A stretch of DNA of 64,000 nucleotides, from positions 124,001-188,000 of the forward strand of contig JAPLFY010000036.1 in NCBI GenBank assembly GCA_026390435.1, read 5' to 3'. Below are positions 33,251-38,917 of the stretch, piece by piece; within the stretch, counting starts at the first letter, position 1, and every line of letters begins with the position of its first letter. The stretch comes from Pseudomonadota bacterium (GTDB lineage Bacteria > Bdellovibrionota_B > Oligoflexia > Oligoflexales > CAIYRB01). The notes beneath the pieces are model-generated. The model had not been told where the DNA came from. It saw nothing but the letters and a program-made list of their open reading frames with translations, and searched no databases. The position numbers and the translations under genes were made by a program.

Positions 33251-34756
33251 TTATGCTGACTGGCGCCCTCTCCTAGCTACAAGTCTCTGTGAACACTCGT
33301 GAATATTAACAACGAGCGAGTCTCGACTAGCCCCCAATTGGACTGCGCGACGAAACAAGAAGTTGGCTTTCAGCCATTGCTGGGTCATTACATGCACCTC
33401 AGCCATTCGCAAAAAGGTATTCGAATTATTAGGATCCATTTTTAAAGATAGGCTCAACATATCTAAGCTCTCAGGGATGCGTCGCATTAGAATGAGTAAC
33501 TCGGCGATATTGTTGTAAGCCTCTGCTGTCGGCAGCAGCTCAACAACACGCTGGAGGACTGGGAGCGCATCGTTATAGTCAGCCTTCTTGAGCAGAATTG
33601 TGCCTGATATACGCAACGCATGCGGATGATTAGGATCCTTTGCGAGGATCTCCCTCAGTACCGCCAGCGCCTCTTCGTCCCGCTGCTGCTGCAGGTAAAA
33701 CATAGCTAGAAGTACCGAGACCTCATGCTTGTCCTGACTAAGCTTGCGGATATCTTTCAAGAGCATCTCAGCCTTGCGTAGCTCGCCAGCAGTCACAGCA
33801 TGCTGCACAGCCGCTTCCAACGGCCTAATGTCTGTGGGGTTGTGGCGCCTAACCCGCCTGAAATAATAGATAGATTTATCAAGATCACCCGCGGCAGCGA
33901 ATGCATGACCCAAGCCCATAAGAGCAGAAATTTGCTTGGGCGCTTCCCGAAGTGCCGCGCGAAAATGCGGAATCGCCACCTCTGGCCTTTTAAGTTTTAA
34001 TAACAACTTCGCCAGCTGAATTTGACGGCCTAATTGCTTGGGATTTATCTTCAGCTCGTTTTCCATGGCGGCAACTGCTTCGAGCAGTTTACGCTGCTCC
34101 AATAGAATGTCCGCAAGCGCCCGATATGCTTTATGATAGCGGGGATTTGCCTGTAAACACAGCTGTAACGAAGCAATCGCCTCGTCACTTCGCTGCATCT
34201 TAAATAACGTCAAGGCTCGGCCCACTAATGCTCTCGGACTCTGGCGTTCTAACTCTAACGTCTGGTCGAAGGCCTTCAAAGCCTCTTCATAATTCGCTGC
34301 CGTATAAAAACGCTCAGCAGCATGAATTGCCTGAACTAACGGAATTGGCGCATGGTAACGATTAAGTGCCTTAACAATTTTTTTCTCGAGATCCTGAGCT
34401 TGAAATGGCTTCAACAAATAGTCTTCTGCCCCGAGACCTGCGACCTTGACGATGTCCTCTTTACTGGCTTCTCCCGTCACCACAATGACTGGAATATCAT
34501 TCGCGACGCTACGGTGACTAATATGTTCCAAGACCTCGAATCCACTAACATGCCGCATGTATAAATCTAGAATGATTAGATCTACTGGGGTACTTTTCAA
34601 AATCTTAAGAGCTTCAGCGCCATCAAAGCATTCGATTACGTTACCGAAGCCGTATTGACTCACCACACGCCTGATGGCTTTACGAATGGGATCTTGGTCA
34701 TCAACTATGACGACTGTAAGATTTTCTGGTTCAAAGATTCGGTCGTGACTAGCCAC
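33251..34756 (-). CDS. Response regulator with receiver domain and long TPR array
   Basis: A 501-residue protein. Residues 13-128 form a receiver with Asp19-Asp20, phospho-acceptor Asp64 in LIILDLYM and Lys116 in YLLKPF. The remainder is an array of roughly ten TPR units (such as NYEEALKAFDQTLEL and RDEEALAVLREILAK). No DNA-binding or enzymatic output is present, so the TPR array is probably the output surface. The start is GTG 34756, with GGAGG six bases upstream. It follows the TPR gene and RNase Y homologue on the same strand. Confidence 0.9.
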   Translation of the reverse strand: MASHDRIFEPENLTVVIVDDQDPIRKAIRRVVSQYGFGNVIECFDGAEALKILKSTPVDLIILDLYMRHVSGFEVLEHISHRSVANDIPVIVVTGEASKEDIVKVAGLGAEDYLLKPFQAQDLEKKIVKALNRYHAPIPLVQAIHAAERFYTAANYEEALKAFDQTLELERQSPRALVGRALTLFKMQRSDEAIASLQLCLQANPRYHKAYRALADILLEQRKLLEAVAAMENELKINPKQLGRQIQLAKLLLKLKRPEVAIPHFRAALREAPKQISALMGLGHAFAAAGDLDKSIYYFRRVRRHNPTDIRPLEAAVQHAVTAGELRKAEMLLKDIRKLSQDKHEVSVLLAMFYLQQQRDEEALAVLREILAKDPNHPHALRISGTILLKKADYNDALPVLQRVVELLPTAEAYNNIAELLILMRRIPESLDMLSLSLKMDPNNSNTFLRMAEVHVMTQQWLKANFLFRRAVQLGASRDSLVVNIHECSQRLVARRGRQSA

Positions 34757-34818: not shown

Positions 34819-35553
34819 TTAATCTCCTACACGCCCATCTTGACCAGTCCAAGAGCGTGCCAAATGGAGATAAGCCCGCGCCGTTGAATTCTCTGGCGAC
34901 GATTCTTGGGCTTTTTCCCAATGTCTCTTGGCTAAATCCCTTTGCCCAAGCTTGTACTGCAAGATACCAAGCCAAGTGTGGGCATCTGCGAGTCCCGGGT
35001 TTTGTACTATGAGTTCCTCAAATTCTTTTTTTGCCTTTTCATGCTGTCCAACTCGTACATAGAGTTTCGCGAGTACAAGTTTGACGTCTGGCATCTTGTC
35101 ATAAAGGGCAAGGCCCTTACGATATTCCTGGATAGCTTCTGGCCACATTCCAGATTCTTCGTAAGCCTGACCACTGAGAACATGCAGATTGGCCAGCCTC
35201 CCCAACACCAATCCCGGCTGCTTCTGTTTTTCACCGACGTGCTCTTCGAGCTTGATGAAAACTTGATGCGCCTCTTCATAGCGGCTTAAATCACATAAAG
35301 TGGCGGCTAGGTTAAGCGCAGCTTCAATATACTCAGGATTTACCGCCAGAGCATGATTAAATTCCCGAATCGCATCCATAAACTTTGATTGCTTATGGAA
35401 GGTCAACCCCAGCATGTTGTGGATGTTCGCTAGTGAACCATAATCGGCCAGGGTAGCCTTCAGCAACTTCTCGGCGGCGTCAAAACGACCTAGACCTAAG
35501 TAGAGATCCACTTTCTTTTTAACGTCAAGTAGCTCTGCACGCTGGGCTGACAT
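34819..35553 (-). CDS. TPR-repeat protein coupled to the RNase Y homologue
   Basis: A 244-residue cytoplasmic protein with about five TPR units covering nearly the whole length (SLANIHNMLGLTFHKQSKF, then YIEAALNLAATLCDLSRYEE, then WPEAIQEYRKGLALYD). The ATG at 35553 overlaps the stop of the preceding gene as TAATG, so translation is coupled. That coupling suggests a working relation with the RNase Y homologue and the receiver-TPR protein, perhaps as adaptors. Confidence 0.88.
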   Translation of the reverse strand: MSAQRAELLDVKKKVDLYLGLGRFDAAEKLLKATLADYGSLANIHNMLGLTFHKQSKFMDAIREFNHALAVNPEYIEAALNLAATLCDLSRYEEAHQVFIKLEEHVGEKQKQPGLVLGRLANLHVLSGQAYEESGMWPEAIQEYRKGLALYDKMPDVKLVLAKLYVRVGQHEKAKKEFEELIVQNPGLADAHTWLGILQYKLGQRDLAKRHWEKAQESSPENSTARAYLHLARSWTGQDGRVGD

Positions 35554-37115
35554 TAGGCCACCGCCGTCGCTTCAAAGCGCCTGGACACTAGTATTTTTAT
35601 CTCACCCGGAAAAGCCACCTCTGTCTCAATCTTGCGCGCAATACTTTGAGATAAACGCTCAAGATCCTGTTCTTGTACTCGTTTATTATTTACTTCCACG
35701 TGAACCTCACGCGCCCCATTCATGATAGACAAGCTCACAACTCCAGGGAAACTGCGGACACATGCCTCAATGCCAGACATACGCATTTGGTAACCTTCCT
35801 CGAGATTGACCCGCGCACCTGGACGAGCGCCTGACAACGTGTCTGCTGCCCTCAGGACATAAGCTAAAGGAGTTTCAATCACCAAATCGTTGTGATGAGA
35901 CATCACGGTGTCACAGATTAGCCTGTTCTCTCCGAATCGGTCCGCATAATCACCACTGATTACAGCATGACTACCCTCAATCCGATAGTCAATCGCCTTA
36001 CCAATGTCGTGCAAGAGCCCACAACGCTTGGCAGCATCGGCATCAACCCCTAGTTCGCTAGCAATGAGGCCCGCCAGTTTGGCCACCTCAACTGTGTGAT
36101 ACCACTGGTTTTGCCGATAACTAGTCCGCCAGTTCAAATACCCGACTAACTTTTGTATCTCCGGATGAATGCCGCTTAGCTTCACTTCCCGAACAGCTGC
36201 TCGGCCCAACTTAACTGCCTGCTGCTCAAGTAATGCTCGATGTTTGTCAAAAGTAGAAGCAGCCTTAGACCAACCGCCTTGACCTTTCGGAAGAAGTTCG
36301 AGAAGGGTAAGTCTTACAGCTTCGCGATCAACCCCTGCACCTCCAGCTAGCTTCAACATCGGTACTGGAAACTCAGCACTCGCCAAGAGTTCGATTTCGA
36401 TTTGGGCCTTTTCTTTTAAGTCGGTTACTATAGTTATCCCTTCGGCTGATAGGCGCTCGACTAACTTAGGATCGACCAACTCAACCGAATTGATCGACTT
36501 AGGCCAGTAGAAATCCGGTGCGTAGCGTGCCATCACTCGGGCCATGCTTCTTTGAGCTAATCGCTTGTGCGATGAACTTAATTCGTCCTCTAAATTCTTC
36601 AGCGCCTTCTGACATTCCATTTGCCGCGAATCAATTAAGTTTGTCTGAATCGTCTTACTTAGAGTGGCAGCGTCCGCATTAGCAATTCTCTCGAGATCTG
36701 TGATCAGCTCTACCTTTAGGTTCGTTACGTCCTGAACTTTGGTTTCGTAGCTACCCCTTAGAGTCGTCACTTTCGCAGAATGTACTTCCAGCTCCTTGGT
36801 TAACTTTTGGATGCGATTCTCTTCGAGCTGAAGCGAACGCTCTTGCGCCTGGATGTCGTCTTCTGTGATTTTGAGGTCTTCCTGTCGCTCCAACAAATCT
36901 GCTTCGATTTGCTCCGCGATCATTTGCTGCTCCTCCTCGATCCGCTCGATCTCGGTTTGGCGCCGAGCCACGATCTGCTGACGCGCATCATTGATGATGT
37001 CGTCACGCTGGGCTCTGTGATCTGCCCGTAATCTCAAAGGTAGGATTCTGTAAATCCAGAGGAACGCCAAGTAGCCCACGACGACAGAACCAATCCCTAG
37101 CAACACGTATCCCAT
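35553..37115 (-). CDS. RNase Y homologue with degenerate KH domain
   Basis: RNase Y is a membrane-anchored endoribonuclease for mRNA turnover. The 520 residues include an N-terminal transmembrane helix (about 2-23), a long coiled coil (about 35-200), a KH-like region (about 210-290) and the HD domain (LLHDIGKAIDYRIEGSHAVISG, then VMSHHND and AADTLSGARPGAR), ending VAFPGEIKILVSRR as in RNase Y. HD residues are intact. The KH part keeps the surrounding pattern but has no GxxG loop (family IIGREGRN). ATG 37115 follows GGGAG with a 7-base gap and gives the family length; the frame starting at 37226 is too long. Confidence 0.85.
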   Translation of the reverse strand: MGYVLLGIGSVVVGYLAFLWIYRILPLRLRADHRAQRDDIINDARQQIVARRQTEIERIEEEQQMIAEQIEADLLERQEDLKITEDDIQAQERSLQLEENRIQKLTKELEVHSAKVTTLRGSYETKVQDVTNLKVELITDLERIANADAATLSKTIQTNLIDSRQMECQKALKNLEDELSSSHKRLAQRSMARVMARYAPDFYWPKSINSVELVDPKLVERLSAEGITIVTDLKEKAQIEIELLASAEFPVPMLKLAGGAGVDREAVRLTLLELLPKGQGGWSKAASTFDKHRALLEQQAVKLGRAAVREVKLSGIHPEIQKLVGYLNWRTSYRQNQWYHTVEVAKLAGLIASELGVDADAAKRCGLLHDIGKAIDYRIEGSHAVISGDYADRFGENRLICDTVMSHHNDLVIETPLAYVLRAADTLSGARPGARVNLEEGYQMRMSGIEACVRSFPGVVSLSIMNGAREVHVEVNNKRVQEQDLERLSQSIARKIETEVAFPGEIKILVSRRFEATAVA

Positions 37116-37225: not shown

Positions 37226-38080
37226 TTGAGCACCGGTGACCAGATCGCCAACGACCCCACCGCGAGCAAACTAGTGCCTTTAAAATCAGCTACTTACAAT
37301 TTCCTTGCAGAGACAATGACGCTGGCCAGTAACGAACTATCAAAGCGCCGCGGTGAAGTGCTTAAGGTCAGCGTAAAACCTGACTCCAGTATAGTCACAG
37401 AGGCTGACCTAGCCAGCGAAAAGGTAATCATCGACCGAATCCGTCATTTCTATCCAGATGATCACATATATTCTGAGGAGGCCGGCCGGAGTTCCCACCT
37501 CAGAACCCCAGGCAGTTACATTTGGATCATCGATCCGCTAGACGGCACCACCAACTATGCAAATGGCTACCCTTATTACTGCATCTCAATCGGCCGGGGC
37601 CAATTCGGCGCCGACGGGAAGATCCAAATGCGTCAAGGCAGCGTCTTTGACGCAGTACGGCAACGCCACTATTACGCCACCCTGGGCGAAGGAGCTTACG
37701 TTGATGACAAACGCATACATGTCGCGGCGCCCCGAGAGTTAAAGCAGAGCTTCCTTGTCACGGGCTTCTATTACATGCAGGGCAAGGACCTACGGCGGGA
37801 GATCGAGCGATTTGCCCGTATCGCTGAACAGTGCCAAAGTGTGCGGCGCGACGGAGCTGCCGCCCTTGACCTCGCCTTGGTGGCGGAAGGTGTCTTCGAT
37901 GCCTTTTGGGAAATGGGCCTACAGCCATGGGATGTAGCGGCTGGCTCCTTGCTGGTCAGCGAGGCAGGAGGACACAACCGTAACTATGGTACCCAAACGA
38001 CTCAAAGTTACGACCTAGAGTCTGCTGGCATCATATCTGGGGCACCCGGAGTCGTCGCGTCTATCGCCAGCCAATTATGA
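37226..38080 (+). CDS. Inositol monophosphatase family protein (SuhB-like)
   Basis: A Mg-dependent sugar/inositol phosphatase of 284 residues. Metal-site motifs are complete: EEAG at 84-87, DPLDGTTNYANGYP from 103 and WDVAAGSLLVSEAGG near 236. VKPDSSIVTEAD (50-61) is the family N-terminal block. The start is given as TTG 37226; no clear Shine-Dalgarno sequence is present and a slightly later start is possible. It is divergent from the RNase Y homologue. The substrate could be inositol phosphate, NADP or a sugar phosphate; SuhB also affects rRNA transcription in some bacteria. Confidence 0.9.
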   Translation: MSTGDQIANDPTASKLVPLKSATYNFLAETMTLASNELSKRRGEVLKVSVKPDSSIVTEADLASEKVIIDRIRHFYPDDHIYSEEAGRSSHLRTPGSYIWIIDPLDGTTNYANGYPYYCISIGRGQFGADGKIQMRQGSVFDAVRQRHYYATLGEGAYVDDKRIHVAAPRELKQSFLVTGFYYMQGKDLRREIERFARIAEQCQSVRRDGAAALDLALVAEGVFDAFWEMGLQPWDVAAGSLLVSEAGGHNRNYGTQTTQSYDLESAGIISGAPGVVASIASQL

Positions 38081-38140: not shown

Positions 38141-38917
38141 ATGGGTCGAACTACTTTGGCATGGCTAGCTAGTTGTGCACTTGGTCTGAGCATGGCCTCA
38201 GCGGCTCAAGGTGCCGCCGTTATTGAGTCTAGCGATCGACTGGAAATAAACTGGACCACTTTGCGGCTGCGATATTATGGCGAAGCAACCATCAGCTCGA
38301 GCTCGGATGATCTCAAAGCTGCTGAGAAAAGGGCATGGCGAGAAGGCCTATCCTATGCAAACGATGCCGTCCGCAACATGAATATAGCGGCGAACGAACC
38401 TTTCGCCTCGACCCCCGAGAAACTTGCTGAAGATGCTAGACAAGCAGCTCATCAAGTGTCGGTCGGTACTTCGTCCTACAGCACGACCTACTTCGCCGAT
38501 GGTACGGTTAGAGTCTATCTGGAAAGTCCTCTAGGCAAAGCCCTCGAAAGCTCGGCGATTCACTTTCGTCAGAAAGAAGCACCTGAGCAAACGATGACCC
38601 AGTTTACTGGCATCGTTCTCAGTGCTGATCATGTGGTCAAACCACGTGCCGCCTATCAGGTGGTCGACGAGGAAGGCAAAATTCTCTTTGATGCCAAGGA
38701 CATGGCTCAGGCATCGTTCAACAAGCGCCTCATGGGGCGGTGGATACGGCGCCCGACTGCCATGGAATTGGCAGATGCCGTCGGTAAAAATCCGCTACAG
38801 ATTCCAGTTTCGATGAAAGATGGCAAGTTCCTGGTTCAACGTGATATTTGGGAAAAAGCAATCGAGGGCCACCGGTCGTTACTTGTTAGCGGAATAATAG
38901 CGATTGCGCTGCCCTGA
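38141..38917 (+). CDS. Secreted protein resembling LPP20-type envelope proteins
   Basis: A 258-residue exported protein with a signal peptide ending near SAAQGA. Mature features are a stretch of [11 protein letters not shown] followed by a charged helix ([18 protein letters not shown]), then [18 protein letters not shown]. This recalls the LPP20/FlgT-N-like fold in which a helix is followed by strands with a GxVRVxVxSPL pattern. A clear GGGAGG sits nine bases before ATG 38141. It lies just before rpmI-rplT, in the place where infC usually lies. Confidence 0.68.

Follow-up and report, generated by a model that had tools for sequence, protein, structure and literature searches.

The rnyB gene and its neighbourhood

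The window, i.e. the whole stretch of 64 000 nucleotides that was analysed, carries on its minus strand, at 35553..37115, a full-length reading frame for a protein of 520 amino acids (P0001); the plus strand across the same interval contains many stop codons. The gene, here called rnyB, encodes a paralogue of RNase Y (rny/ymdA of Bacillus subtilis, Staphylococcus aureus and Helicobacter pylori), which it resembles in the membrane helix, the coiled coil, the position of the KH domain, the HD motif and the C-terminal region. The original prediction of a full-length RNase Y homologue, with coiled coil, HD residues and C-terminal region in place, is thereby borne out.

The N-terminal membrane helix and coiled coil (residues 1-195; 36531..37115, minus strand) are indicated by a Pfam RNase_Y_N match of 36.1 bits (cut-off 32), by the hydrophobic character of the first 25 or so residues and by the model of the full-length protein, in which helices at residues 2-145 and 149-181 correspond to the anchor and coiled coil of RNase Y. 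The HD domain (residues 325-445; 35781..36143, minus strand; Pfam, 58.7 bits) contains SYRQN, H340, H369-D370, H383, H407-H408 and D425, the latter being the last ligand of the H..HD..D motif (codon at 35841..35843, minus strand). H340, H369-D370 and D425 are present in all 53 RnyB proteins, as in the HD domain of RNase Y. RNase Y acts as a metal-dependent endonuclease on 5'-monophosphorylated RNA, and RnyB may do so too.

With the NCBIfam RNase_Y model (TIGR03319), residues 8-518 of RnyB align to positions 5-511 of the 514 in the model, at 290.5 bits. This is 164 bits below the equivalog cut-off of 454.35 and sets RnyB apart from RNase Y, as do the lack of GxxG and the pairing with a copy damaged in its HD domain. 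The 49 RnyB copies scored as one stretch reach 263.4 to 329.3 bits, all below the cut-off, those of G006 and G023, which matched the model in two pieces, being kept apart. The Pfam scan gave no KH match in RnyB of the window, and KH_1 was missing from all 21 family members scanned, in one of which a sub-threshold match to CinA_KH (E 0.015) was recorded.

In the Oligoflexales rnyB is followed by genes in an operon-like row, the order of which is conserved. The next gene downstream (34819..35553, minus strand), whose start shares one base with the rnyB stop codon, encodes a tetratricopeptide repeat (TPR) protein of 244 amino acids; among the 37 stretches compared, the window and L032-L067, 31 have it after rnyB. 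The third gene (33251..34756, minus strand; 26/37 stretches) encodes a protein of 501 amino acids with a response-regulator receiver and TPR. The phospho-accepting Asp is kept in most of the 26 receiver domains; one (MNLYY) has Asn there and is without the usual Lys, and another is without the first aligned block. The TPR pair was not found near rnyB in stretches of the Silvanigrella type or in several others examined, all of which keep rnyB, and was therefore probably gained in one order; the idea that the TPR and receiver-TPR proteins were an ancestral substitute for the KH loop was set aside on account of the Silvanigrella-type stretches.

On the other side, the divergent neighbour of rnyB (37226..38080, plus strand) is a gene of the inositol-monophosphatase family, which also adjoins rnyB in Silvanigrella-type genomes and is common to both orders of the class. 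A link with RNA metabolism, as for SuhB and CysQ, may exist here too. Between it and the gene for ribosomal protein L20 lies a gene (38141-38917, plus strand) for an exported-looking protein of 258 amino acids without a Pfam match, a relative of which is present in 28 of the 37 stretches.

The KH segment of RnyB

Residues 207-277 (36285..36497, minus strand) form a degenerate KH domain with a predicted beta-alpha-alpha-beta-beta-alpha order, in which a one-residue turn replaces GxxG. In the models, helices alpha1 (216-225) and alpha2 (227-237) are separated by that single residue. Within the alpha1-alpha2 zone (P0001 207-245), GxxG was found in none of the 53 RnyB proteins, versus all 54 proteins of the second, RnyA, family and all 44 outgroup proteins; the same counts are obtained for the aligned GxxG in one alignment of the three sets. 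Shuffled RnyB zones contain GxxG in only 4% of cases, so that its absence alone says little; as far as the aligned sequences go, the telling point is the replacement of an otherwise invariant loop. The loss of GxxG from the KH segment had been predicted, together with the proviso that a displaced copy of the loop would speak against it; the alignment yielded no such copy in any of the 53 proteins.

The segment has also gained motifs of its own. RYxPxFxWPK (residues 197-206; 36498..36527, minus strand), just before beta1, is new to the RnyB family, its WP being found in 53/53 RnyB, 0/54 RnyA and 0/44 outgroup proteins; GGxG (residues 258-261; 36333..36344, minus strand), which is distinct from the GxxG of KH domains, is found at the beta3-alpha3 junction in 52/53 RnyB proteins and is likewise not present in RnyA or the outgroup. 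GGxG was considered as a displaced GxxG and rejected, as its site is that junction instead of the space between alpha1 and alpha2. With RYxPxFxWP and GGxG nearly invariant, the sequences argue that the RnyB KH segment is not free to drift.

The full-length model, built from 21 sequences, has a mean pLDDT of 78, with values below 50 at residues 183-205, 377-386 and 432-440, and gave no useful match in the PDB. Because the long coiled coil dominated that comparison, the KH segment was modelled alone (47 sequences; pLDDT 87.8). Its elements, in segment numbering, are E15-17, H21-30, H32-42, E45-49, E58-62 and H66-82, i.e. those of a KH type I fold. With this model, Foldseek returned no match at E below 0.001, KH domains and designed proteins appearing at E 0.03 and above; in a second structural comparison the best matches were KH proteins, with Z up to 10.2, and the tighter rows had an rmsd of 2.1-2.8 A over 76-79 residues. 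The retention of the KH fold in RnyB is, on these models, supported rather than proven, and the prediction that the structure would lack an intact KH loop is upheld in that the modelled fold has a tight turn in its place. By sequence, neither RnyA nor RnyB retrieved a solved RNase Y from the PDB.

Among the best matches is 6fai_h, which we take to be Dim2/Pno1 (Z 10.2, rmsd 2.8 over 79; matched chain range 93-176), and Krr1 is also found (4qmf_B; Z 8.7, rmsd 2.5 over 77; matched chain range 38-118). The matched ranges fall on the first KH of each protein. A KH fold without GxxG is shared by RnyB with KH1 of Dim2/Pno1 and Krr1 and with KHa of archaeal MTH1203; unlike RnyB, these proteins carry the loop-less and the RNA-binding KH in one chain, and their identity to RnyB KH is about 10%. 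The comparison is, as such, one of fold and loss, kinship not being implied. KH1 of Dim2 and of Krr1 is described as lacking GXXG and binding proteins, that of Dim2 being the site for the endonuclease Nob1 (PMC5738357), and KHa of MTH1203 is thought not to bind RNA (PMC3095777). By analogy with Dim2 and Krr1, the RnyB KH segment may bind a protein partner.

A second copy with the opposite lesion

The genome to which the window belongs (4.28 Mb in 153 contigs, 95% complete) encodes a second RNase Y, RnyA, on another contig (G000:C25), and rnyA and rnyB are not neighbouring genes. RnyA shares 26% identity with RnyB, carries a canonical KGRIIGREGRNIR loop, and scores 634 bits with TIGR03319 and 30.1 bits with Pfam KH_1 (cut-off 21.5). 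Directly after rnyA lies a gene that we presume to be ymdB-like from the usual RNase Y-YmdB order. The existence of a canonical rny elsewhere in the genome, which the original prediction had put forward for checking, is confirmed as far as the GxxG loop is concerned, with the qualification that this copy has D425N and no SYxQ.

Both changes extend to the whole family. Asn occupies the D425 column in 54/54 RnyA proteins, and Asp is found there in 53/53 RnyB and 44/44 outgroup proteins; SYxQ, searched as [ST][YFH]xQ just ahead of the first His, is present in 0/54 RnyA, 53/53 RnyB and 44/44 outgroup proteins. The 44 outgroup proteins, from which those of two-copy genomes are excluded, all carry both functions in one chain, as is the rule in ordinary RNase Y. 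Judged by the HD superfamily at large, a fourth ligand changed to Asn would stop or cripple the HD enzyme of RnyA. The remaining HD residues H340, H369 and D370 are still in place in 53/54 RnyA proteins. The exception (L109, G022:C74) shows the strongest HD decay in the class, with loss of D370, K373 and H407/H408 and Lys replacing the Asp of HD.

Distribution and crossed constraint in the class

Searches for RnyB used the full sequence across the order (43 genomes) and a KH-region profile across the class (58 genomes), and a phylum-wide profile search returned the same 58 genomes. Named relatives in a genome collection include Oligoflexales, Oligoflexus, Pseudobacteriovorax and a Silvanigrella, and it is from these and from the lineage of Oligoflexales that the class is taken to be Oligoflexia. 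A full or nearly full RnyB is encoded in 53 of the 58 genomes and a short piece in two more (G002, G025); it was not found in the remaining three (G030, G046, G055). RnyA was read in 54/58 genomes and both copies in 51/58, and a separate count with TIGR03319 gave another RNase Y copy above the cut-off in 52/56 genomes. When only genomes with a completeness of 90% or more and a contamination of 5% or less are considered (n=39), RnyB is present in 39/39 and a full RnyA in 38/39, the remaining one (G011) having only a C-terminal RnyA piece, so that the pair is fixed across the class. Two genomes show a single copy and no remnant of its partner, G030 (RnyA only; 72% complete) and G043 (RnyB only; 74% complete). 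The RnyB of the latter (L128, G043:C1) is a shorter form, in an open frame of 465 amino acids, in a genome of 1.2 Mb; if that genome is truly small, RnyB may stand alone there. Outside the class, the KH-region profile scored at most 54.6 bits (133 genomes), versus at least 91.6 bits for full RnyB inside it, and the first 21 outside proteins read all had a GxxG loop. No relative of RnyB was found on viral contigs.

The two copies are constrained in opposite domains. Among the 49 genomes with both copies complete, a comparison from which G033 and G037 are omitted for their partial copies, the mean pairwise identity of RnyA is.839 in the KH domain and.600 in the HD domain, and that of RnyB is.327 and.754, respectively, the values for the 44 outgroup proteins being.675 and.587. 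The KH domain is more conserved in RnyA in 1175 of 1176 genome pairs and the HD domain more conserved in RnyB in 1141 of 1176; the pairs are non-independent, and the direction is the same nearly throughout. From the sequences, it is nearly certain that two RNase Y paralogues are maintained in the class, one having lost the KH loop and the other the HD Asp.

Two-copy genomes outside the class

A second copy was searched for in 80 of the 83 outside genomes with a weak KH-profile match, and at least two RNase Y genes were found in six (G075, G108, G110, G131, G148 and G169); G091 was discarded as a two-copy genome, its two rows being adjoining pieces of one gene. After addition of G191, of the family of G075, and of eight more genomes of the phylum of G110, both copies were fully readable in 12 genomes. 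Here, the copy with the canonical KGRIIG KH is called A. D425N is found in the A copy in 8/12 genomes and the HD motif is intact in the other copy in 12/12, of which three (G075, G191, G148) have lost GxxG in this second copy. In the G110 group, G108 and G131, the second copy keeps the loop, with the Arg before IIG or VIG replaced.

The extreme case is that of G075 and G191, in which the A copy combines HD to HA, H383Y, H408N and D425N, and the other copy is without GxxG. Milder damage is seen in the A copies of G148 and G169, which keep D425 and have lost SYxQ, that of G169 being also without H407; the A copy of G193 keeps D425 and a T-Y-x-Q version of SYxQ, and that of G131 has no HD damage at the columns examined. 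Besides its GxxG-less copy, G148 contains two nearly identical KH-intact copies near contig ends (L167 and L168, on C51 and C107), which may be an assembly duplicate, the genome being 5% contaminated.

In trees built from the HD and C-terminal regions, RnyA and RnyB of the class are each split off by a single branch (support 98 and 100, respectively). The A copy of G148 groups with RnyA (fork support 88), which implies that loss of SYxQ would precede the change from Asp to Asn, and the A copy of G169 also falls inside. The GxxG-less copies lie on one side of a branch (support 90) in a tree of 68 rows and not in that of 98 rows, the two trees differing in their weak parts; two AU tests rejected nothing, this grouping included. 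The trees and tests are compatible with one or more duplications, and with duplication either within the class or before it.

A proposed division of RNase Y between two proteins

In many bacteria, mRNA decay begins with RNase Y, and the pair bears on how the KH and HD domains cooperate within its dimer. A full-text search, outside which most subscription journals and preprints lie, retrieved no paper describing in its title or abstract RNase Y paralogues with divided domains or an Oligoflexia RNase Y. As described in one study (PMC9775385), RNase Y dimerises through the N-terminal coiled coil, models add a second interface at the C-terminal strand and show, close to the KH domains, a hole proposed to accommodate RNA, and earlier two-hybrid work in B. 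subtilis is reported there to have shown no C-terminal contact. In H. pylori, a His-to-Ala mutant of the HD couplet of RNase Y is described as resembling the knock-out (PMC11821409).

As the enzyme is dimeric and both copies, with their opposite lesions, are retained, the simplest account is joint action, i.e. a division of labour within one heteromeric RNase Y in which RnyA binds the RNA and RnyB cuts it, to which we assign a probability of about 0.6. An ancient duplicate pair would have split the functions of RNase Y, RnyA keeping the RNA-binding KH with a damaged HD centre and RnyB keeping the catalytic HD with the RNA-binding loop lost. The two proteins would associate by their coiled coils and C-terminal strands, the presumed contacts of the RNase Y dimer, so that RNA gripped by the KH domain of RnyA could be cut in trans by the HD domain of RnyB, while the KH of RnyB, remade with its invariant WP and GGxG, would offer a protein-docking surface like the GxxG-less KH1 of Dim2 and Krr1. 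In Oligoflexales, the TPR and receiver-TPR proteins of the same operon may regulate the complex. Paralogous nuclease subunits with one main catalyst are found in RNase J1/J2 of Bacillus and in Rrp41/Rrp42 of the exosome, which differ in having other folds and no reciprocal exchange of RNA-binding and catalytic domains.

Some observations weigh against such a division. Nearly all RnyA proteins retain H340, H369 and D370, so that some residual activity of RnyA is possible. The C-terminal contact comes from models, rnyA and rnyB lie apart in the genome, and G030 and G043 show one copy each. Outside the class, the A copy of G148 lost only SYxQ, that of G193 keeps D425 and T-Y-x-Q and that of G131 is undamaged at the columns examined, and the second copy of the G110 group keeps GxxG, only the Arg of KGRIIG being changed. 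A fuller proposition, that of an obligate heteromer whose only RNA-binding KH and only working HD lie in different subunits, a division fixed in the class, with more than one origin or more than one progression to catalytic loss, and with the cutting subunit wired to a phosphorylatable receiver-TPR regulator in Oligoflexales, stands at even odds.

It is also conceivable, if rather unlikely, that the paralogues are two separate proteins with no need of a shared complex. RnyA would then bind RNA at the membrane without cutting it, and RnyB would be an endonuclease in its own right, finding RNA without the KH loop, by its HD domain or through operon partners. The operon-like row with TPR and receiver-TPR genes in most Oligoflexales stretches would fit such an arrangement, as would the location of rnyA elsewhere, ahead of the ymdB-like gene, and the strong constraint on each copy in one domain only. 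However, rnyB is retained where the TPR partners are missing, in Silvanigrella-type and several other stretches, and the occurrence of the KH and HD lesions in opposite copies in several groups would be left unexplained.

Appreciably less probable is a switch of RnyB to a nucleotide or second messenger, with the KH remnant serving a regulatory or structural role. Nucleotide hydrolysis is carried out by HD domains in many families, and the HD domain of RnyB is more uniform than that of the outgroup, a weak argument as the outgroup is more diverse; yet nearly all residues conserved in the HD domain of ordinary RNase Y are kept, along with anchor, coiled coil and C-terminal region, the catalytic loss in the sister would go unexplained, and, the HD domain of the sister being damaged, no functional RNase Y would remain in the class. 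Both access to RNA through a partner and action on a nucleotide second messenger had been proposed originally; the former has become the favoured reading and the latter found no support. Finally, neutral decay of a duplicate towards a pseudogene, or an artefact, to which the 33% identity of RnyB KH might point, is refuted by 53 copies open without stops, an HD domain more conserved than in RnyA and the new invariant WP and GGxG, retained across the whole class.

If labour is indeed divided between RnyA and RnyB, the label ‘ribonuclease Y’ given to every RNase Y homologue of these bacteria would conceal a pair of proteins, each of which may fall short of being an RNase Y alone. The pair would show which residues, such as the last HD Asp and SYxQ, can be lost once a partner provides them. 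With each protomer lacking one function, it would amount to a ready-made complementation experiment of nature, which predicts cleavage in trans.
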